From Chitinophagaceae bacterium DXS (GTDB lineage: Bacteria > Bacteroidota > Bacteroidia > Chitinophagales > Chitinophagaceae), in NCBI GenBank assembly GCA_030345135.1, contig CP128386.1, positions 589,129 through 653,128 on the forward strand: DNA of 64,000 nt, given 5' to 3'. A program made the translations under genes and the position numbers. Below the pieces are notes generated by a model that saw nothing but the letters and a program-made list of their open reading frames with translations, was not told where the DNA came from and searched no databases. Positions 3,956-54,457 of the stretch are shown here, piece by piece; position 1 is the stretch's first letter, and each line of letters opens with the position of its first letter.

Positions 3956-4445
3956 TGTTAAGTACGAAGTACGATTTACGAAGTACGAAATGGGCTGTCT
4001 GGCGAAGGAGAGCTGTGTGATGTAAGATGTTAGATGTACGGTGTACGATGTGAGGATGGACTGACTTGCGAGGGTGAGCTGAGTATAATGTACGATGTTA
4101 GATGTACGATGTTAGATGTACGGTGTACGATGTTAAGTACTAAGTATGATTTACGAAGTACGAAATGGACTGTCTGGCGAGGGTGAGCTGTTTGATGTAC
4201 GATGTTTGATGTAAGATGTACGATGTAAGTGCCAAGTACGAAATGAGTTGTCTTACGAGGATGAGTTTCCTGATGTACGGTGTACGATATGGAATGTATG
4301 TGATGTGCAATATGCATAAAGGCAGGGATATGGGATGGGGATTGAAACCTGACACCCGAAACCTGATACCTCAAATCTAATGCCTCTAGCTGAAAGCTAA
4401 TAGCTGATAGCTCGCAGCTTTTAGCTCACAGCTTATAGCTGTTAA
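3956..4445. repeat. Composite intergenic word-array region
   Basis: This gap contains no credible gene. It is built from four word families in order: TACGAAG words (3958-3993, again about 4136-4168), GATGTACG words (4018-4057, 4083-4135, 4191-4230, 4270-4293), CCTGATACC words (4344-4386) and TAGCTGATAGCT words (4387-4443). A spacer close to CTGTCTGGCGAGGGTGAGCTG recurs four times (near 3994, 4056, 4169 and 4248) between the first two families. Short frames crossing it are repeat translations, not proteins. Confidence 0.85.
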
Positions 4446-15884: not shown

Positions 15885-15891
15885 GGAAACT

Positions 15892-16405
15892 GATTAAGTA
15901 CGAATTACGAAGTACGAAGTACCTGGTTCGAACAGGTCTGTTTTTATTGGACGGCACAAATAGAGGGAGTGATTAAGTATGTGTTACGAAGTACGAAGTA
16001 CCTGGTTCGAACAGGTCTGTTTTTATTGGACGGCACAAATAGACAGAGTAATTAAGTACGAGTTACGAAGTACGAAGTACCTGGTTCGAGCAGGCTCTAT
16101 TTTCTTTGGACGGCATAAATAGAGGGAGTGATTAAGTACGAGTTACGAAGTACGAAGTACCTGGTTCGAACAGGTCTGTTTTTATTGGACGGCACAAATA
16201 GAGGGAGTGATTAAGTACGAATTACGAAGTACGAAGTACCTGGTTCGAACAGGTCTGTTTTTATTGGATGGCATAAATAGAGGGAGTGATTAAGTACGAG
16301 TTACGAAGTACGAAGTACCTGGTTCGAGCAGGCTCTATTTTCTTTGGACGGCATAAATAGAGGGAGTTATTAAGTACGAGTTACGAAGTACGAAGTACTC
16401 CTGGT
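15892..16405. repeat. 79-80 bp tandem array, seven copies, with TACGAAG words
   Basis: Copies start at 15892, 15971, 16050, 16130, 16209, 16288 and 16368, the last one diverging after about 35 bases. Each contains GATTAAGTACG, TTACGAAGTACGAAGTACCT, GGTTCGAACAGG and a GGACGGCACAAATAG tail. Two subtypes occur: CAGGTCTGTTTTTATTGG (79 bp) and CAGGCTCTATTTTCTTTGG (80 bp); the second appears in copies 3 and 6. GGTTCGAACAGG resembles a T-arm sequence, but there is no tRNA. Confidence 0.92.
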
Positions 16406-16486
16406 TCAACACCGTCATTTTTTTTTCAACATCTTCCTTTCGATTCAGTTATCTTAAGATGTTGAAAAGAAATTAACCAGCTCAAG

Positions 16487-16532
16487 ATTGAGTACTTCGT
16501 ACTTCGTACTTTGTAATTCGTACTTCTTACTT
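16487..16532. repeat. Inverted TACGAAG word array before hbd
   Basis: GAGTACTTCGTACTTCGTAC and the following CTTTGTAATTCGTACTTCTT are the reverse complement of the words in the 79 bp array on the other side of the gap. The gap 16406-16486 holds no gene. A -7-like TACATTTG follows at 16547-16554. Confidence 0.85.
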
Positions 16533-16573: not shown

Positions 16574-17476
16574 ATGAATCAAACGATTGCAGTAATAGGA
16601 GCCGGAACAATGGGGAATGGTATTGCGCACGTTTTTGCACAGGCAGGTTTCCAGGTTTCCTTAATAGATCTGAATCACGACCAGCTTACAAAGGCGCTGG
16701 CTCAAATACAGAAAAACTTTGACAGGCAAATAAGTAAAGGCACTGCTACCGAAGAGCAGAAAAAACATTCTCTTTCAAATATCAGTATTCATACCAACCT
16801 GATATCAGGAATTGGAAATGCAGGATTAATCATCGAAGCAGCCACAGAAAATACGGACACAAAGCTGGAGATTTTCAAAAAGTTGGATGCAATAGCGGCG
16901 ACGGATGCAATTCTCGCGTCTAATACATCATCCATTTCTATTACAAAAATTGCCGCCGCAACTTCACGTCCTCAGCAGGTGATTGGAATGCATTTTATGA
17001 ACCCGGTTCCGGTAATGAAGCTGGTAGAAATCATCAACGGGTATGCAACTTCTGCAGAAGTTACCAAAACAATAACTGAACTCACCCTTCAATTGAATAA
17101 GGTTCCCTGTGTTGTAAACGACTATCCCGGCTTTATTGCCAACAGGATACTTATGCCGATGATTAATGAAGCTATATATAGCTTGTATGAGGGCGTGGCT
17201 GGTGTTGAAGAGATTGATACTGTCATGAAGCTCGGTATGGCACATCCAATGGGACCGCTGCAATTAGCTGATTTTATTGGTTTGGACGTCTGCCACAGTA
17301 TTTTGAAAGTGCTGCAGGATGGTTTTGGCAATCCTAAATATGCGCCTTGCCCACTCCTCGTTAATATGGTAACTGCCGGAAAGCTTGGCGTAAAAAATGG
17401 TGAAGGATTTTACAGTTATTCATCGGGAAGCAAGGAACTGGTTGTGAGCGACAGGTTTAGGAAAGCGGCAAAGTGA
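16574..17476 (+). CDS. hbd: 3-hydroxybutyryl-CoA (3-hydroxyacyl-CoA) dehydrogenase
   Basis: An NAD-dependent dehydrogenase that oxidises 3-hydroxyacyl-CoA. The Rossmann motif GAGTMGNGIAHVFAQAG begins at residue 9. The catalytic region IGMHFMNPVPVMKLVEII (about residue 139) holds the active-site His. The C-terminal dimer domain carries DYPGFIANRILMPMINEAI and KLGMAHPMGPLQLADFIGLD. At 300 residues it is slightly longer than the clostridial Hbd family (about 280). It stands alone, with no thiolase or hydratase gene next to it, so its pathway (beta-oxidation, butanoate or phenylacetate) cannot be fixed. Its stop codon TGA is itself part of a GTGAATGGTGAA word array. Confidence 0.93.
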   Translation: MNQTIAVIGAGTMGNGIAHVFAQAGFQVSLIDLNHDQLTKALAQIQKNFDRQISKGTATEEQKKHSLSNISIHTNLISGIGNAGLIIEAATENTDTKLEIFKKLDAIAATDAILASNTSSISITKIAAATSRPQQVIGMHFMNPVPVMKLVEIINGYATSAEVTKTITELTLQLNKVPCVVNDYPGFIANRILMPMINEAIYSLYEGVAGVEEIDTVMKLGMAHPMGPLQLADFIGLDVCHSILKVLQDGFGNPKYAPCPLLVNMVTAGKLGVKNGEGFYSYSSGSKELVVSDRFRKAAK

Positions 17477-17690
17477 ATGGTGAACGGTGAAGAGTGAATG
17501 GTGAATAGTGAATAGTGAAAGACAGCAGCAGTTATACTTATTTCAAAAAGTGACAATTGCGGAAAGGGTAGGGACTCTCTGTGAAACTCAGTGTCTCCTC
17601 CGTGCCCCGCCGTGTAACCACTCTCACACAAAACAGCAGAAAACCATAAAACGCAATGATACAAAAACGTACAACGTATAACGTACAACT
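17473..17690. repeat. GTGAATGGTGAA and CTCTGTGAAAC word arrays
   Basis: From the hbd stop to 17520 the sequence is copies of GTGAATGGTGAA or GTGAATAGTGAA. At 17576-17625 come words of the CTCTGTGAAACTCAGTGTCT type, and at 17663-17690 CGTACAACGTATAACGTACA. No gene is present. Confidence 0.8.
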
Positions 17691-28460: not shown

Positions 28461-28461
28461 A

Positions 28462-28650
28462 AAGCTTAAAGCTTAAAGCCCAAAGCCCAAAGCCTAAAGC
28501 CTAAAGCCCAAAGCTTAAAGCCTAAAGCCTAAAGCCTAAAGCCTAAAGCTTAAAACTTAGGCGAACGGATGATCTCTGGTAAATTAGTATAATTATCCTG
28601 GTGTTTTTTTTCAGTTTTAGGCTTTAAGCTTTGAGCTTTCAGCTTTGCTT
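28462..28650. repeat. AAAGC word arrays in inverted orientation
   Basis: The left array (28462-28557) is an almost unbroken run of AAAGCTTAAAGCCCAAAGCC variants, about 13 words. The right array (28613-28650) reads TTTTAGGCTTTAAGCTTTGA, the reverse complement. About 55 bp of unique sequence separates them, and the right array ends about 30 bases before the SPFH gene start. Confidence 0.9.
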
Positions 28651-38566: not shown

Positions 38567-38727
38567 TGTGCAACTGCGAAATTTTAATGAGGCAGGATGA
38601 TGGTGCGGTTAATATCCAAGGATAAGATCGATTTATTCGAATTAAATTTCTATTGATATTAACTGTGCTGCTGGAAAGAGAAGCAGGTAGGAAATACGAC
38701 ATTTTTGAAGGATGTGCTGGCTCGCGT

Positions 38728-38768
38728 GTAGATCTGTCCTACACTTTCAAAGTGTAGGACAGATCTAC
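38728..38768. repeat. Perfect 41 bp palindrome, first copy
   Basis: Two 20 bp arms, GTAGATCTGTCCTACACTTT and its exact reverse complement, flank a single C. It stands at the outer edge of the duplicated lolE-tail unit. Compared with the second copy it carries GATC in place of AATC and the change is mirrored in both arms. Confidence 0.92.
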
Positions 38769-38897
38769 CCGGGGAAGTACACGTCGACCAAATTCCAGAA
38801 TTCTCCCGTATCCTTGCCCGTAGGGCATTAAGCTCAATAGAAATAAATGATTAGCTTAATATTATTGTCCGTAGGACATTAACAGTATTAGTTCTCT

Positions 38898-39157
38898 CTA
38901 CCTGAACTGAATCGCCTTCACCGGCGAAATGTTCTTTACAAAAAGCGTTGGTAACAGCAACGATAAATGCAGACAAACAAGGTTGCAATACACACCAGCA
39001 ACACCTGCCACCAGATAATATCAACCGGCGCGGAACGGACATAATATGCACTTTCATCCAATTTTATAAAGCCGGTGTATTGTTGCAGCAAACAAATGCC
39101 CAGGCCAAAAAGCAACCCAATGCCAATGCCTCTCACGGCAATAATAGCCGAGTTATA
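38898..39157 (-). pseudogene. Truncated duplicate of the LolC/E permease C-terminus
   Basis: This copies the last part of the gene at 39331-40563, from MRGIGIGLLFGLGICLLQQY on. It has lost the 5' part at GAGTTATAAAG, where the second palindrome begins, and one A in AACGATAAAATGC, which shifts the frame so the end reads CIYRCCYQRFL. The stop is TAG in place of TAA. It cannot make a functional permease. Confidence 0.88.
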
Positions 39158-39159
39158 AA

Positions 39160-39204
39160 GTGTAAATCTGTCCTACACTTTCAAAGTGTAGGACAGATTT
39201 ACAC
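39160..39204. repeat. Perfect 45 bp palindrome, second copy
   Basis: Two 22 bp arms, GTGTAAATCTGTCCTACACT plus TT and its exact reverse complement, flank a single C. It marks the boundary between the two duplicated units. Confidence 0.92.
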
Positions 39205-39330
39205 GGGAAATACACGTCGGCCAGATTCCAGAATTCTCCCGTATCCTTGCCCGTAGGGCATTAAGCTCAATAGAAATAAATGATTAGCTTAATATTATTG
39301 TCCGTAGGACATTAACAGTATTAGTTCTCT

Positions 39331-40563
39331 TTACCTGAACTGAATCGCCTTCACCGGCGAAATATTCTTTACAAAAAGCGTTGGTAACAGCAACGATAAA
39401 ATGCAGACAAACAGGGTTGCAATACACACCAGCAACACCTGCCACCAGATAATATCAACCGGCGCGGAACGGACATAATATGCACTTTCATCCAATTTTA
39501 TAAAGCCGGTGTATTGCTGAAGCAGGCAAATGCCCAGGCCAAAAAGCAACCCAATGCCAATGCCTCTCATGGCAATAATAGCCGAGTTATAAAGGAATAT
39601 TTTCTGAATGGTCCAATCTCTTGCGCCCACCGCTTTTAAAACGCCGATCATCCTTGTTCTCTCCAGCACAAGGATCAACAAGCAGGTGATAAGATTAATA
39701 ATGGCCACAACGGACATTACTGTAAATATTACATCCCTGTTTACGTCCTGTATATTCAGCCAGTCAAAAATATTGGGGTAGATCTCCTTAATTGTTTTAC
39801 TGATCCAGGCATCCGGTAGCTTGTTAAACAACATGGAATTTACTGTGTCCAGCTTTTTGTAATCTTTTATAAAGATCTCATAGCCGCCGATCTCGTCAGG
39901 CTGCCAGTTGTTAATCCGTCTTATCAAACGGATATCTGCCAGCGCAAAAAGTTTGTCGTACTCTTCAATGCCACTTTTAAATATGCCACTTACTACAAGC
40001 TTTCTAAATGTGCTTTTACCCTCGGAGGGAGAAATAAAATGCACGATAACCGAATCACCCATTTTAATCTGTAATTCGTTAGCAATTGGTTGGGATATAA
40101 TAATATTCCGGCTATACAGACTATCACCGAAATTCAACCACCAGCCTTCCTGCATAAACGATTCAAAATTGGTGGAATCGTATGCCTGGTCAATTCCCTT
40201 TATCAGCACTCCTTCAATTTCCTTGTTCTTTTCAATTACGGCAGACTTTGTTGCAAAAGGCTGAACGGACCGGATCTCGGGTATTTGTTTTAAGATATGA
40301 ATAACGGAGTCATTTTCTTTGAGGGCCGTCTCCTCAGCAACAATGGCCTTGGCAGGCTCATACTGCTGAACACGGATATGTCCCCAGAAATTAAACACCT
40401 TGCCGCTTACTTTTTGCTGAAAGCCATTCACAAAAGCCAGTGTAATGATCATAGCGGCGACGCTCAGCGCTGTGGCTGCTGTTGCCAGTTTTATTATAAA
40501 TGCTGAAAATGACTTCTGGCCCTTAAATGCTATGCGGTTTGCTATAAATGAGGCAATGTTCAT
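39331..40563 (-). CDS. ABC transporter permease, LolC/LolE (FtsX) family
   Basis: About 410 residues with the lipoprotein-release permease layout: an N-terminal helix (ATALSVAAMIITLAFVNGFQ), a 220-residue periplasmic MacB-like domain, and three C-terminal helices starting FTVMSVVAIINLITCLLILV, with the FtsX motif MIGVLKAVGARDWTIQKIFL. It probably moves lipoproteins from the inner membrane towards the outer membrane. The ATG at 40563 is chosen; the frame upstream (HPHIYTFAHPPIS) is translated word repeat. The gene tail and downstream region are duplicated. No ATPase gene is adjacent. Confidence 0.9.
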   Translation of the reverse strand: MNIASFIANRIAFKGQKSFSAFIIKLATAATALSVAAMIITLAFVNGFQQKVSGKVFNFWGHIRVQQYEPAKAIVAEETALKENDSVIHILKQIPEIRSVQPFATKSAVIEKNKEIEGVLIKGIDQAYDSTNFESFMQEGWWLNFGDSLYSRNIIISQPIANELQIKMGDSVIVHFISPSEGKSTFRKLVVSGIFKSGIEEYDKLFALADIRLIRRINNWQPDEIGGYEIFIKDYKKLDTVNSMLFNKLPDAWISKTIKEIYPNIFDWLNIQDVNRDVIFTVMSVVAIINLITCLLILVLERTRMIGVLKAVGARDWTIQKIFLYNSAIIAMRGIGIGLLFGLGICLLQQYTGFIKLDESAYYVRSAPVDIIWWQVLLVCIATLFVCILSLLLPTLFVKNISPVKAIQFR

Positions 40564-40574
40564 AAAGGGTAAAA

Positions 40575-40680
40575 GTAATGAAATGGGCGGATGTGCAAAT
40601 GTGTAAATGTGCGGATGTGCGAATGTGCAAATTTGCGAATTTGAGAGAATTGACAATTGACAGGTGATAATTGAAAATGA
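40575..40680. repeat. GTGCAAATGTGC and AATTGACAATTG word arrays
   Basis: GATGTGCAAATGTGTAAATG and related words fill 40590-40640, and GAATTGACAATTGACAGGTG with ATAATTGAAAATGAA fills 40645-40680. They lie directly upstream of the permease start. The remaining 40681-41006 stretch has no supported gene. Confidence 0.8.
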
Positions 40681-49270: not shown

Positions 49271-49303
49271 TTTGTTTCGAAAAAACAATTCCCCTTATAT
49301 TTG
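49271..49303 (+). promoter_or_regulatory. Bacteroidota promoter of tRNA-Asp
   Basis: TTTG at 49271-49274, a 21 bp gap, and TATATTTG at 49296-49303. This is a near-ideal match to the -33/-7 pattern. The tRNA starts about 93 bases downstream of the -7 element. Confidence 0.7.
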
Positions 49304-49396
49304 CACTCCCAAACGATACAGCGGTAACGTTGAAAACGGAAAAAGGGAAGAATAAATAACTGGTTAATAGCTAATTAAATATTCTAAAAAGTTCTT

Positions 49397-49470
49397 GGAT
49401 CGGTAGTTCAGTTGGTTAGAATGCCGCCCTGTCACGGCGGAGGTCGCGGGTTCGAGTCCCGTCCGGTCCG
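49397..49470 (+). tRNA. tRNA-Asp (GTC anticodon)
   Basis: A full cloverleaf: acceptor GGATCGG with CCGGTCC, D-arm around GTTCAGTTGGTTAGAAT, anticodon stem CCGCC and GGCGG around the loop with GTC, and T-arm CGGGTTCGAGTCCCG. The discriminator is G and CCA is not encoded. A hairpin terminator follows at once. Four GIY-YIG genes lie directly downstream. Confidence 0.97.
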
Positions 49471-49471
49471 C

Positions 49472-49501
49472 AAAGAGCCTCACAGAAATGTGAGGCTTTT
49501 T
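49472..49501 (+). terminator. Terminator of tRNA-Asp, repeated in the downstream units
   Basis: AGCCTCACA and TGTGAGGCT pair perfectly across a GAAA tetraloop, then TTTTT. The same hairpin, slightly altered, starts each GIY-YIG repeat unit (near 49855, 50235, 50616 and 50997). Confidence 0.92.
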
Positions 49502-49530
49502 CGTTATCCTAAACCTCAAACCCTTCTCCC

Positions 49531-49797
49531 ATGTTTTACGTCTACATTATCCGAAGCGAAATTGATAATTCGTTCTACAAAGGTTACTCTGAAAATCCAG
49601 CCCAGAGACTTATTCAACACAATAACAAAGAATCACATTATACCTCTTCAAAAGTTCCATGGAGACTAGTGTATGTTGAATTGATGTCGTCCAAACGGGA
49701 GGCATTGATCAGAGAGAGAAATCTGAAGAAAGCAACCCGTGAAAGATTACGAGCTTTAATTGCGGGTCCTAAAAATATTGTCGGGCAATTTCTATAA
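49531..49797 (+). CDS. GIY-YIG domain small nuclease-like protein, copy 1
   Basis: 88 residues, essentially one GIY-YIG domain of the YhbQ/UPF0213 type. The first strand MFYVYIIRSEID carries the Tyr of the GIY equivalent, FYKGYSENPAQRLIQHN the second motif with the catalytic Arg, and SSKREALIRERNLKKATRER the Glu of the metal site. These short proteins are common in Bacteroidota; their DNA targets and role are unknown. It starts 30 bases after the tRNA-Asp terminator. It differs from copy 2 at only a few bases. Confidence 0.9.
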   Translation: MFYVYIIRSEIDNSFYKGYSENPAQRLIQHNNKESHYTSSKVPWRLVYVELMSSKREALIRERNLKKATRERLRALIAGPKNIVGQFL

Positions 49798-49910
49798 TTG
49801 TAAGAATGCCCCAACAGTACTGTTGGGACGGTCCTCCCCACAATACTGTGGGGACTCACAGAAATGTGAGGCTTTTTCATGTAATAGTATTACCCTTCAA
49901 ACCCAACCCC

Positions 49911-50177
49911 ATGTTTTACATCTACATTATCCAAAGCGAAATTGATAATTCGTTCTACAAAGGTTACTCTGAAAATCCAGCCCAGAGACTTATTCAACAC
50001 AATAACAAAGAATCACATTATACCTCTTCAAAAGTTCCATGGAGACTAGTGTATGTTGAATTGATGTCGTCCAAACGGGAGGCATTGATCAGAGAGAGAA
50101 ATCTGAAGAAAGCAACCCGTGAAAGATTACGAGCTTTAATTGCGGGTCCTAAAAATATTGTCGGGCAATTTCTGTGA
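49911..50177 (+). CDS. GIY-YIG domain small nuclease-like protein, copy 2
   Basis: The sequence is the same as copy 1 except for Ile for Val at residue 4 and Gln for Arg at residue 8 (MFYIYIIQSEID). All presumed catalytic residues (Tyr, Arg in PAQRLIQHN, Glu in KREALIRERN) are kept. The Met at 49911 is the equivalent of the other copies; the open frame extends upstream through the hairpins and is not protein-like there. Confidence 0.88.
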   Translation: MFYIYIIQSEIDNSFYKGYSENPAQRLIQHNNKESHYTSSKVPWRLVYVELMSSKREALIRERNLKKATRERLRALIAGPKNIVGQFL

Positions 50178-50290
50178 TTGTAAGAATGCCCCCACAGTAC
50201 TGTTGGGACGGTCCTCCCCACAATACTGTGGGGACTCACAGAAATGTGAGGCTTTTTCATGTAATAGTATTACCCTTCAAACCCAACCCC

Positions 50291-50557
50291 ATGTTTTACA
50301 TCTACATTATCCAAAGCGAAATTGATAATTCGTTCTACAAAGGTTATTCTGAAAATCCAGCCCAGAGACTTATTCAACACAATAACAAAGAATCACATTA
50401 TACCTCTTCAAAAGTTCCATGGAGACTAGTGTATGTTGAATTGATGCCGTCCAAACGGGAGGCATTGATCAGAGAGAGAAATCTGAAGAAAGCAACCCGT
50501 GAAAGATTACGAGCTTTAATCGTGGGTCCTAAAAATATTGTCGGGCAATTTCTGTGA
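50291..50557 (+). CDS. GIY-YIG domain small nuclease-like protein, copy 3
   Basis: Like copy 2, with Pro for Ser in VELMPSKREAL and Val for Ala in ALIVGPKNIVG. The catalytic set is intact. The gene starts at 50291, at the same point of the repeat unit as the others. Keeping an open frame in every copy suggests selection or very recent duplication. Confidence 0.88.
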   Translation: MFYIYIIQSEIDNSFYKGYSENPAQRLIQHNNKESHYTSSKVPWRLVYVELMPSKREALIRERNLKKATRERLRALIVGPKNIVGQFL

Positions 50558-50671
50558 TTGTAAGAATGCCCCCAACAGCATTGTTGGAACGGTCCTCCCC
50601 ACAATACTGTGGGGACTCACAGAAATGTGGGGCTTTTTCGTGTAATATTATTACCCTTTAAACCCAGCCCC

Positions 50672-50938
50672 ATGTTTAACGTCTACATTATCCAAAGCGA
50701 GATTGATAATTCGTTCTACAAAGGTTATTCTGAAAATCCAGCCCAGAGACTTACTCAACACAATAACAAAGAATCACATTATACCTCTTCAAAAGTTCCA
50801 TGGAGACTAGTGTATGTTGAATTGATGTCGTCCAAACGGGAGGCATTGATCAGAGAGAGAAATCTGAAGAAAGCAACCCTTGAAAGATTACGAACTTTAA
50901 TCGTGGGTCCTAAAAATATTGTCGGGCAATTTCTATGA
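50672..50938 (+). CDS. GIY-YIG domain small nuclease-like protein, copy 4
   Basis: The most diverged of the four: MFNVYIIQSEID at the start, LTQHNNKESH, and KATLERLRTLIVGP near the end, where Leu replaces the Arg of KATRERL. The Tyr, first Arg and Glu positions are kept. It starts at 50672 and closes the array. Confidence 0.87.
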   Translation: MFNVYIIQSEIDNSFYKGYSENPAQRLTQHNNKESHYTSSKVPWRLVYVELMSSKREALIRERNLKKATLERLRTLIVGPKNIVGQFL

Positions 50939-51044
50939 TTGTAAGAATGCCCCCAACAGCATTGTTGGGACGGTCCTCCCCACAATACTGTGGGGACTCA
51001 CAGAAATGTGGGGCTTTTTCGTGTCTGTTATTATCTTTTAAATC

Positions 51045-51072
51045 GGATCAAGTTGAAAATCTGGGATCAAGT
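51045..51072. other. Paired GGATCAAGT motif, possible remnant of an IS end
   Basis: GGATCAAGT occurs at 51045-51053 and 51064-51072, 19 bp apart, exactly where the truncated lipoprotein copy stops resembling the full gene. Regularly spaced GGATCAA motifs occur in ends of IS21-like elements in Bacteroidota as I recall. No transposase gene is present. Confidence 0.3.
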
Positions 51073-51252
51073 CAAATTTATGTCTCCAAACCTGCAATAA
51101 TGGAATAATGTGTCACCAAGCCGGGTCGTATCACTGGCCGGTGTAATTGTAAAAGGTGTTATGAACTTAAGCTCTACAAAATCATCCTTTTTATGTGGAG
51201 GAGTACAGCTAACAATAATAAGTGCGATAACCGCTATCAAATACTTTGTCAT
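51067..51252 (-). pseudogene. Truncated copy of the adjacent lipoprotein gene
   Basis: About 61 codons. The first 49 match the gene at 51284-51958 closely: lipobox region ALIIVSCTPPHKKDDFVELK against ALITVGCTPPHKKDHFIELK, and the shared FITPFTITPASDT. After LGDTL the sequences part and this copy reads FHYCRFGDINLT and stop. It is a broken duplicate. It might still encode a short lipopeptide. Confidence 0.8.
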
Positions 51253-51283
51253 GAACAACTTTTAAAGCTGGGTTGTTAAGCTT

Positions 51284-51958
51284 CTACTTTACAACAAAAG
51301 TATATGTGGCTTCTTTCTCGTAATTATATTCATCGTTAAAAGCGGGGGGATTATAAATACTTCCAACTTTTGTATGTTGTTCATACAGACAAAAATTGGT
51401 ATTGCCGTCATTGATTATATTCCAGATGTTATTTAGATAGGCAATTTTCTTGCCTCCTTTATCAGACGGGCCGAGATGGATATTCTCAAGTCCTACTCCT
51501 TTACCAAGGAGTCCATACAAAAAACTTATTGCATGAATACCCCTTTTCTTTGGAACAATCTTTATCCGTAGTTTATAATGGCTATCCTGGTATACATATC
51601 TAACAAAGCCCCAAGAGCCAGCGTTTACGATCTTACCGACCTCATTAAAAATATTAAAATCGTTTATGTTCCAAAGTTGGTCAGTAATACACTTACTTGA
51701 ATCAACCAATTCACGAAAAATTACTGTTTCATTAAAATCAAAATTTTCCAGCCTGTAGTATTTTCCACTCAAAATGTCCTTCACAGAATCTGAAAAGTTT
51801 GCTCCGAGCGTTAATGTGTCGCCAAGCTGAATTGTGTCACTTGCCGGTGTAATAGTAAAAGGCGTTATGAATTTAAGCTCTATAAAATGATCTTTCTTGT
51901 GCGGTGGAGTACAGCCAACGGTAATCAGTGCGGCAATTGTAATAAAATACTTTGTCAT
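51284..51958 (-). CDS. Lipoprotein of unknown function, paired with metalloprotease-like gene
   Basis: 224 residues. A lipoprotein signal (ITIAALITVGCTPP) precedes a beta-rich domain: FIELKFITPFTITPASDTIQ, TLGANFSDSVKDILSGKYYR, and later YKLRIKIVPKKRGIHAISFL and a final strand YNYEKEATYTFVVK. I do not recognise the family. It begins 38 bp after the end of the metalloprotease-like gene on the same strand, so they are probably one operon. A truncated copy of its start lies directly downstream. Confidence 0.72.
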   Translation of the reverse strand: MTKYFITIAALITVGCTPPHKKDHFIELKFITPFTITPASDTIQLGDTLTLGANFSDSVKDILSGKYYRLENFDFNETVIFRELVDSSKCITDQLWNINDFNIFNEVGKIVNAGSWGFVRYVYQDSHYKLRIKIVPKKRGIHAISFLYGLLGKGVGLENIHLGPSDKGGKKIAYLNNIWNIINDGNTNFCLYEQHTKVGSIYNPPAFNDEYNYEKEATYTFVVK

Positions 51959-51995
51959 AAACAAGTTTTAAGGCTGCGTTTGCAGCTTTGAATAG

Positions 51996-53969: not shown

Positions 53970-54367
53970 GTTTAAGGATTTAAAGATTAAGCATGGAAGG
54001 TAGAGAGGCGAATTTTTATTTGGTTGTCGAGCCAATCAAAAAAATAGCCCGAAAAATGTGCCTTGCGAAGGTGTTATATTAATAATTTCCGGTGGTTCGT
54101 GTATGCAATAATATCATCTATTCATTTTAGACAAAAAATCGCTTTCGTTATTGTTCTGGATGTTTGGCAGGGGATGTCGAATTAATGATGAAGCGATGTT
54201 AATCCCAATATATGTAGGTCTTGTAAAGCATGTTATATCTGGCCGTTTCAAAGGCAGCTTTTAGTTGGCAGCAGTAAAAATGACAAAGAGAGAGGCGGAA
54301 TAATGCTTGTCAAAGGCAGCTAGAGCTAGTAGAAGAAAGATCGACTAACATTGATGACGGATTGCAA

Positions 54368-54457
54368 ATGTTACTCAGAAAATCGTGTTCACAGACTTAT
54401 TCAACACAATAACAAAGAATCACATTATACCTCTTCAAAAGTTCCATGGGGACTAGT
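54368..54457 (+). pseudogene. Relic of a fifth GIY-YIG unit
   Basis: From ACAGACTTATTCAACACAAT to GTTCCATGGGGACTAGT the sequence matches the inside of the GIY-YIG genes almost base for base, in the same orientation; the first 25 bases are a weaker match. It is cut at both ends, without start or stop. The surrounding gap (53970-54953) has no other feature that I can support. Confidence 0.88.

Follow-up and report, generated by a model that had tools for sequence, protein, structure and literature searches.

A tandem array of small GIY-YIG genes behind tRNA-Asp and its tRNA-linked relatives in Bacteroidota

The array behind tRNA-Asp and its protein

We analyzed a window of 64,000 nucleotides from the genome of Chitinophagaceae bacterium DXS (GenBank assembly GCA_030345135.1, contig CP128386.1, positions 589,129 to 653,128 of the forward strand), in which a tRNA-Asp gene is followed by a tandem array of small GIY-YIG nuclease-like genes. 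The array is made up of four units of 376–381 bp, spaced 380, 380 and 381 bp apart as judged by their direct repeats, and each unit holds an intact 88-codon frame, as a first-pass annotation of the sequence had described. That annotation placed the array at 49503–51022; the array is real, and its span proves slightly wider, at 49479–51024. A 26-nt terminator repeat occurs five times, once behind the tRNA-Asp and once closing each unit (Table 1), in agreement with the earlier statement that every unit carries the terminator of the tRNA. The array has the top Tandem Repeats Finder score in the window (2789). Over 300 nt, unit 1 is 98, 94 and 93% identical to units 2, 3 and 4, respectively, and each pair of units is separated by 1–4 synonymous and 2–6 non-synonymous differences. 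Because the units differ mutually, the array is not an assembly echo of a single copy.

The tail of each unit presents the same order of parts: GAATGCC, a palindrome, CGG..TCC, a second palindrome and the terminator. The tails of three related loci (L066, L068 and L069; L and G numbers are our handles for loci and genomes, with the genome of the window as G000) have a similar order and a better preserved copy of tRNA-Asp, and the window tail aligns with that of L068 along its length. Taken alone, the match of the window remnant to tRNA-Asp is weak, with 56 of 2000 shuffles scoring as high; we accept it as a tRNA-Asp copy mainly because the order of palindrome, CGG..TCC, palindrome and terminator matches L068. 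We read the unit as a terminator, a gene and a probable tRNA-Asp copy, decayed and split by two palindromes. The earlier view that the shared terminator shows the array to have grown out of the 3′ flank of the tRNA fits this arrangement but is incomplete, in that the repeat of the relatives includes part of the tRNA gene.

All four frames are open, as first annotated, and their products match PF01541 at 58.9–62.2 bits against a cut-off of 22.6. Residues Y5, Y16, G18, R26, H30, N31 and E62, which the GIY-YIG literature describes as catalytic positions, are invariant in an alignment of 11 sequences, four of them from the window. The unit 1 protein was modeled with AlphaFold2 from an alignment with the other three window proteins and seven relatives (predicted local distance difference test score, pLDDT, in Table 1). 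A fold search with this model gave two PDB hits below an E value of 0.001, a UPF0213 protein and Slx1, with the catalytic domain of I-TevI next at 0.29; a sequence profile also finds UPF0213 and Slx1 entries (1zg2, 1ywl and the Slx1 entries). Across loci, the proteins are about 80–100 aa long. At the window locus the gene is a separate open reading frame (ORF) that lies inside neither an intron nor an intein and is in this sense free-standing. Codon comparison of 36 pairs from the clade of the window protein, the Asp clade described below, gives a median omega of 0.28, with synonymous distances near saturation, which points to purifying selection on the protein.

A protein search of the 7.29-Mb genome, which the first-pass annotation had proposed in order to find further units at tRNA genes, revealed two more tandem pairs besides the four-copy array and a dispersed fragment of a unit (Table 1). 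One pair is a 418-bp repeat directly upstream of an intact tRNA-Arg(CCT), where pieces of tRNA-Arg precede each unit and carry an inserted palindrome within their D loop. A 326-bp repeat makes up the second pair, set among tRNA-Lys and tRNA-Lys-like copies that have TCCCGAT..ATCGGGA in place of the anticodon arm. The genome has four stand-alone GIY-YIG loci in all: three are tandem and linked to a tRNA, and L017, from a different subfamily, has no tRNA. The tRNA-Lys region (L011, G000:C1:4956500-4961500) contains several tRNA-like copies that follow one another head to tail and have replaced anticodon arms; ARAGORN identifies two of these copies as tRNAs whose anticodon is TTA. The dispersed fragment in the window lies about 3.3 kb downstream of the array, with no tRNA in the 2.5-kb stretch around it.

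Table 1. Features of the tRNA-Asp locus and the dispersed unit fragment (positions in the window)
Feature	Position	Strand	Basis or remark
Intact tRNA-Asp (GTC), the associated tRNA	49397..49471	+	ARAGORN; Rfam RF00005, 68.1 bits
tRNA terminator (hairpin and T run), first of five direct-repeat copies	49479..49504	+	Direct repeats
GIY-YIG gene, unit 1 (88 aa)	49531..49797	+	ORF; PF01541; AlphaFold2, mean pLDDT 96.1
Putative remnant of tRNA-Asp copy, 10/11 identical, weak alone	49800..49810	+	Collinearity with L068 tail
Palindrome 1 inside tRNA remnant, unit 1	49810..49827	no strand	
Palindrome 2 (TCCCCACA-n4-TGTGGGGA), unit 1	49835..49854	no strand	4 further genome places outside array
Terminator repeat, start of unit 2	49855..49880	+	Direct repeats
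GIY-YIG gene, unit 2 (88 aa)	49911..50177	+	ORF; PF01541
Palindromes 1 (one mismatch) and 2, unit 2	50190..50234	no strand	
Terminator repeat, start of unit 3	50235..50260	+	Direct repeats
GIY-YIG gene, unit 3 (88 aa)	50291..50557	+	ORF; PF01541
Palindromes 1 (imperfect) and 2, unit 3	50571..50615	no strand	
Terminator repeat, start of unit 4	50616..50641	+	Direct repeats
GIY-YIG gene, unit 4 (88 aa)	50672..50938	+	ORF; PF01541
Palindromes 1 (imperfect) and 2, unit 4	50952..50996	no strand	
Last terminator repeat, end of array	50997..51022	+	Direct repeats
Dispersed 93-bp unit fragment (unit positions 104–196, 91% identical)	54365..54457	+	= G000:C1:643493-643585

Linkage to tRNA genes in relatives

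We searched for PF01541 in 39 genomes including that of the window and took 56 stand-alone loci, meaning frames under 200 aa, from the other 38; the window's own loci were excluded, as were frames longer than 200 aa, which by their length are probably mostly UvrC and polymerase-type proteins. In 32 of the 56 loci, the gene has a tRNA no more than 520 bp away, in all 32 cases on its own strand; the gene is downstream of this tRNA at 21 loci and upstream at 11. Across the gene from this tRNA, a copy of it was found in 29 of the 32 loci, whereas control stretches taken about 1 kb away gave 0 of 27. Another four loci, in which no tRNA is recognized (L026, L035, L056 and L097), carry tRNA pieces, and several tRNA-linked genes stand at contig ends, as collapsed repeats do. 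A separate clade of 14 GIY-YIG proteins, 12 of them from the 56-locus sample, shows no tRNA linkage and provides an internal control. With an intact host gene on one side and a partial copy on the other, most of the linked loci have the layout of the fungal mitochondrial mobile ORFs that carry an end of their host gene.

The linked genes keep largely to particular tRNAs. When the window protein was searched against 294 genomes of its family, 37 had a match at an E value of 1e-14 or better; 22 of the 29 loci fetched have a tRNA within 520 bp, and it is tRNA-Asp in all 22. Among the others of this Asp set, L064, L070, L074 and L092 carry pieces of tRNA-Asp, and L075 and L085 carry a broken tRNA-Asp core. 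A search of 396 genomes of the order with a protein of the tRNA-fMet group, set beforehand as a prediction, matched 64. Here a tRNA is present no further than 520 bp from the gene in 21 of 30 loci (20 Met and one Phe); three of the 21 had been seen earlier (two Met and the Phe), and the new cases are Met in 18 of 18. This Met set repeats some places of the first sample (L142 is L031, L145 is L035, L150 is L055, L162 is L060 and L167 is L041). By eye, six more of its loci show pieces of a Met tRNA (L145, L156, L161, L162, L165 and L168), and three, all from one genus, show none (L164, L169 and L170). A second copy of the tRNA was found at 20 of the 22 Asp-set and 20 of the 21 Met-set places, as opposed to 0 of 21 control stretches for each; a few places are shared between the three scored sets (32, 22 and 21 places). 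L090, which coincides with L057, and L134, which judging by its length is on the same contig as L067, were not scored for the copy, and L133 and L066 encode identical proteins.

On a quick tree of 87 proteins, the isotype labels require 29 changes, while shuffled labels require 52.4 on average and none of 200 shuffles is as low; the Asp label alone requires 4 against 25.2, with none of 500 as low. The tree leaves out proteins shorter than 60 aa, L100, L109, L111, L112 and the 30 Met loci; its proteins were cut to 100 aa, and some labels at contig edges derive from tRNA pieces. These data show that clades keep largely to one isotype, with a fidelity that is not absolute. Presence is patchy within genera. 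The same plan extends beyond one family, with tRNA-Asp in Chitinophagaceae and Ferruginibacter, in one Sphingobacterium, and in one Flavobacteriales and an unplaced Bacteroidetes metagenome-assembled genome (MAG), and with tRNA-Ser in a Chryseobacterium MAG; a locus in a Methylococcaceae MAG has no tRNA. MAGs among these named records can be mis-binned.

Of the two tRNAs that flank the gene, one is intact, and in the other a short GC-rich palindrome usually breaks the sequence. The copy in Asp-type loci runs to position 38 or 41, gives way to the palindrome and resumes at position 51 in 29 of 34 cases (29 loci from the family and five named records, the pattern being sought anywhere in the fetched stretch); it extends to 38 in 18 of these loci and to 41 in 11. 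As for the other five, the copy resumes further on in L071 and is cut by the contig end in L092, L073 and L091 show no broken copy, and L083 could not be judged. The rule holds both where the gene is downstream of the intact tRNA (L065, L072 and L086) and where it is upstream (L082, L088 and L089). Met loci commonly read CTCATA, then TCCGCC-n-GGCGGA, then CG, and this palindrome lies less than 200 bp from the gene in 25 of the 30 Met-set loci. The palindrome sits in the D loop in the Arg loci of one genome and in the T loop in Glu loci. Perfect GC-rich palindromes reach a density of 3.66 per kb on the far sides of the genes, compared with 0.20 per kb more than 800 bp away in the same loci; under this strict definition, 32 of 56 tRNA-linked loci have one, these 56 being a different set, drawn from all samples, with a tRNA within 160 bp.

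Tandem arrays recur in relatives. We found them in six other genomes, with 15, 4, 3, 3, 3 and 2 copies, one gene of a three-copy array carrying a stop; the comparison of copy number that had been proposed at the outset thus shows that the unit is not single copy everywhere. In addition, a pair of genomes from the same genus presents the site in both states: a bare tRNA-Asp in G014 and three full 325-bp units in G248. The two loci are collinear to the end of the tRNA and again beyond the array, and 228 bp of G014 between these points are unaligned. As for a homing endonuclease, the gene stands beside what would be its preferred target, which is intact in a relative without the gene (G014). This was the only pair of empty and filled sites that aligned on both sides of the tRNA. 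Two pairs aligned upstream to the tRNA end only (G022/G133 and G306/G174), two upstream and over the tRNA (G001/G188 and G020/G202), and comparisons of G007/G121, G021/G132 and G004/G241 were uninformative. G075 was rejected as an empty site because it has a weaker GIY-YIG match of its own.

In G248, the ATG of the first GIY-YIG gene follows directly after the last base of the tRNA, and no terminator lies between the two (L128, around 1611). Because the gene abuts the tRNA in this way, its sequence suggests expression from the tRNA promoter, possibly as a leaderless mRNA released by tRNA 3′ processing.

The family is widespread, attached to particular tRNA genes and carries a second, broken copy of the tRNA. 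The suggestion in the first-pass annotation that the unit is tied to tRNA genes is strongly supported by the linkage, the isotype-keeping clades and the duplicated broken tRNA copy, and further by the patchy distribution, the uninvaded site in the same genus and the recurrent arrays.

Dispersed palindromes and how the element may work

The palindromes are also found away from the genes. Palindrome 2 of the window occurs at eight places in its genome, four of them outside the array; no tRNA lies in the 1.4–1.5 kb around any of these four, and one of them appears by eye to be an insertion in another repeat. The palindrome of the Arg array occurs at 40 places in the same genome (≤3 mismatches), two of them in its array. 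For the Met type, we counted TCCGCCN{2,5}GGCGGA in 26 genomes that have a Met-type gene and in 26 others treated as lacking it, subtracting the genome's own Met locus. The median number of dispersed copies is 7.5 with the gene and 1 without (p 3e-6), and 6 and 1 inside the window's family (p 5e-5), although the genomes are related, and so not independent, and palindromes at other GIY-YIG loci are still counted. The number is higher with the gene in all five genera that have both states, and a control palindrome of the same shape, TCCCGA, gives 2 and 2 (p 0.10). Six of the 26 genomes taken as without were not listed as matchless (G000, G001, G099, G133, G248 and G298), G000 having weak Met-protein matches that are its Lys genes. 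With only the 20 listed as matchless, the medians are 7.5 and 1 (p 2e-5), 6 and 1 inside the family (p 1e-4), and 2 and 1.5 for the control (p 0.06).

Around dispersed TCCGCC palindromes, 19 of 20 stretches from three genomes contain neither a tRNA nor a tRNA piece. The twentieth (L183, in G008) is a Met tRNA locus with three TCCGCC palindromes in broken tRNA-Met copies. L176 and L177, also in G008, are mixed clusters of palindromes resembling repetitive extragenic palindromes (REPs), with TCCGCC-n-GGCGGA beside ACCGGTCGGGTG types. The counts support a link between gene clade and dispersed palindrome, though not a direction for it.

On balance, we lean toward reading the array as the expanded copy of a minimal chromosomal element of tRNA genes, a free-standing homing endonuclease akin to SegB that would use a broken tRNA as portable homology. 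According to the SegB paper (PMC13096335), SegB of phage T6 is a free-standing GIY-YIG enzyme beside tRNA genes that cuts inside them and is needed for the recombination-based tandem amplification of a phage tRNA segment. The element consists of one small intron-less GIY-YIG gene between an intact tRNA and a broken copy of the same tRNA, in most cases broken by a palindrome. The enzyme would cut DNA within or close to the tRNA gene segment at which the copy is interrupted, and the break would be repaired by recombination with a piece carrying the gene between two tRNA segments. The tRNA would thereby serve as homology arms that fit the copy of any species, and one working tRNA would always remain. 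Further breaks between the direct repeats, formed by the tRNA end and the terminator, may lengthen or shorten the array through unequal recombination, as with SegB. The palindrome, which belongs to a family found at scattered places of the host genome, would leave the spare copy without its cut site and would also make loss by recombination between two identical tRNAs less frequent. At the window locus, the tRNA part would have decayed to the remnant with two palindromes, leaving the terminator as the repeat that sets the spacing. The motif reported for SegB in the same source is RAWTSGAAC (PMC13096335); read on the other strand, in our own reading, it becomes GTTCSAWTY and fits the T loop of tRNA genes. 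The Glu copies are broken at the T loop that fits this motif. An element of this kind may well be selfish or self-expanding, as the first-pass annotation proposed from the sequence.

Several observations weigh against this account. The core of the intact tRNA-Asp is the same in genomes with and without the Asp element, and an enzyme that cuts the intact gene would therefore cut its own host; the SegB authors name the same problem of how the host tRNA is spared (PMC13096335). The protein is a bare domain with no separate DNA-binding part, and its nearest solved relatives, UPF0213 and Slx1, are not homing enzymes. On the tree, 42 of 83 inner branches are unresolved, the Leu, Phe, Pro, Lys and Glu labels (2–3 rows each) do not cluster, and L139, from the Chryseobacterium MAG, falls among the Asp proteins yet carries tRNA-Ser pieces. 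In the 56-locus sample, 20 loci lack a tRNA link, 12 of these belonging to the separate GIY-YIG clade, and L141, in a Lentisphaerae MAG, lies 209 bp from a tRNA-Val with no copy of it. No second tRNA copy passed in six of the 75 scored places (L058, L106 at a contig edge, L107, L073, L091 and L152). Finally, one scan, which reaches close relatives only, found no relative of the window protein in viral contigs, and three phage and four plasmid records hold only weak relatives (35–40% identity). On the last two grounds we also rejected a phage or plasmid origin of the window protein.

A rather unlikely alternative is a system that spreads palindromes. REPs are short and dispersed, and their number follows a chromosomal enzyme gene, that of RAYT, which has a palindrome of this type of its own. 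By analogy, the GIY-YIG enzyme would recognize or process the palindrome as a hairpin or cruciform, the scattered copies would be its non-autonomous offspring and the broken tRNA would be its home site. The type of palindrome follows the clade, as the Met-set loci illustrate; the dispersed Met-type palindromes track the gene while the control stays nearly flat; the Arg and window palindromes both lie at places outside their arrays; and the fold resembles Slx1, which is known to cut branched DNA. The counts behind this argument nonetheless come from non-independent genomes, with a ‘without’ set drawn entirely from one family and including the six genomes not listed as matchless, and they take in palindromes at other GIY-YIG loci of the same genomes. 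Moreover, no common insertion site was seen in the dispersed stretches, nearly all of which lack a tRNA or piece, and the Asp clade tolerates many palindromes. The two accounts could also be joined in a new kind of chromosomal selfish element of Bacteroidota, in which a clade of 80–100-aa GIY-YIG proteins for each isotype homes via tRNA homology, rebuilds a working tRNA, marks the spare copy with its own palindrome and spreads copies of it across the genome. A single mechanism would then underlie both tRNA homing and the emergence of REP-like palindromes; we regard this as possible rather than likely.

The remaining explanations give the enzyme another role or none. Purifying selection would suit a nuclease that serves the host at tRNA genes, in tRNA dosage, repair or defense against phages or integrating elements that use or carry tRNAs, and that is amplified when useful; amplification of a tRNA by phage SegB gives a dosage benefit. 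Such a role is improbable given the patchy presence (37 of 294 family genomes for the window protein and 64 of 396 order genomes for the Met protein) and given that the spare tRNA copies are mostly broken, which would not raise tRNA dosage. Very improbable is a unit acting at the RNA level, in which a tRNA-like hairpin RNA would control or neutralize the enzyme as an RNA antitoxin or attenuator, or would shield the mRNA. The broken tRNA does lie on the gene strand and within the unit in both arrangements, and pairing within the palindromes is kept even as their sequence varies from locus to locus, but the position of the break varies by clade (D loop, anticodon arm, variable region or T loop), so that no common RNA fold is kept, and at the window locus the intact tRNA alone exceeds its Rfam threshold. 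Least probable of all is chance amplification, in which slippage between terminator repeats would have duplicated an ordinary gene located behind a tRNA, with no role for the enzyme. Any direct repeat can do this, and unit 1 is closest to its neighbor, as unequal crossing-over would give. The earlier annotation had named as its mark that no other unit would lie near tRNAs and that relatives would have a single copy; neither is the case, with three arrays at three tRNAs in one genome, arrays in six others and a recurring plan of tRNA, gene and broken tRNA.

Other candidates were tried and set aside. Recoding of the intact tRNA as self-protection was not seen, the core being identical with and without the Asp element. 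A group I intron in the tRNA was rejected because the intact tRNA is uninterrupted and nothing but this tRNA reaches its Rfam gathering score at 49300–51200, with no intron match there. An integrase-type element, such as a phage or an integrative and conjugative element, would not fit in repeat units of 325–418 bp, which have room only for the GIY-YIG gene. An array at 38726–39594 was rejected as the same element, as it has no GIY-YIG frame; a 434-bp segment with the 3′ end of a permease-like frame (39331–40656, minus strand) is present there twice, and each copy contains a near-perfect palindrome of 41–45 bp.

The window contains further repeats. Behind the GIY-YIG array, on the minus strand at 51067–51964, related frames of 63 and 226 aa follow in succession and share an 87-nt direct repeat (84% identical). 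Several arrays have units of 7 bp or multiples thereof (4088–4440, 16492–16532, 17472–17519, 28461–28554 and others), and a 79-bp array lies at 15891–16411.

Comparison with known systems

tRNA genes are landing sites for large integrase-bearing elements. The element described here is about one gene long and seems to rely at these genes on a homing-type nuclease rather than an integrase. Isotype keeping largely holds across genera, and because tRNA genes hardly change between species, homing over a wide range would be possible in principle. The break points in the spare tRNA copies are candidate cut sites, clade by clade, and the arrays, which reach 15 units, may be for bacteria what the amplification driven by SegB is for phages. 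Given a link of one gene clade to one dispersed palindrome, the origin of such palindromes would become directly testable in these bacteria.

REP/RAYT systems are similar in their dispersed palindromes. RAYT is a Y1 HUH transposase of the IS200/IS605 type, whereas the protein here is a GIY-YIG nuclease, is tied to tRNA genes and is associated with its palindrome only by correlation. Among solved structures, UPF0213 and Slx1 come closest to the window protein in both sequence and fold, and other GIY-YIG proteins form the separate clade (14 rows on the tree) without tRNA linkage. In a 2006 survey of the GIY-YIG superfamily, the passages that mention ‘tRNA’ do not concern neighboring tRNA genes. 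Fungal mitochondria have mobile ORFs with a duplicate 3′ end of the host gene, in atp6 of Allomyces and in atp6, atp9, cox2 and nad3 of Glomus (PMC3630166). In these ORFs, an endonuclease gene lies at the end of a gene, as it does here, with a hybrid host gene on one side of the insert and the displaced remnant of the host gene on the other (PMC3630166). The present elements differ in that the host is a bacterial tRNA gene, the remnant is interrupted by a palindrome, tandem arrays are formed and both upstream and downstream arrangements occur.

In the literature judged by titles and the openings of abstracts, outside which most subscription journals and preprints lie, we found no description of tRNA-linked GIY-YIG elements in bacterial chromosomes, which does not imply their absence from print. 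The closest known counterparts are SegB and the other free-standing GIY-YIG enzymes of T-even phages, which likewise are encoded by an intron-less gene beside tRNA genes; for SegB, a segment with tRNA and nuclease gene is likewise amplified in tandem, an expansion that here is our interpretation of the arrays. SegB belongs to phages and the present genes to bacterial chromosomes, and the SegB paper reports no isotype preference (PMC13096335), whereas the clades here keep largely to one. Unlike that of SegB, the unit here includes a second, palindrome-broken tRNA copy, and the proteins are about 80–100 aa long. The free-standing homing endonuclease with tRNA targets is thus a known kind in phages, and the chromosomal form, with isotype-keeping clades and a palindrome-broken spare tRNA, looks new.

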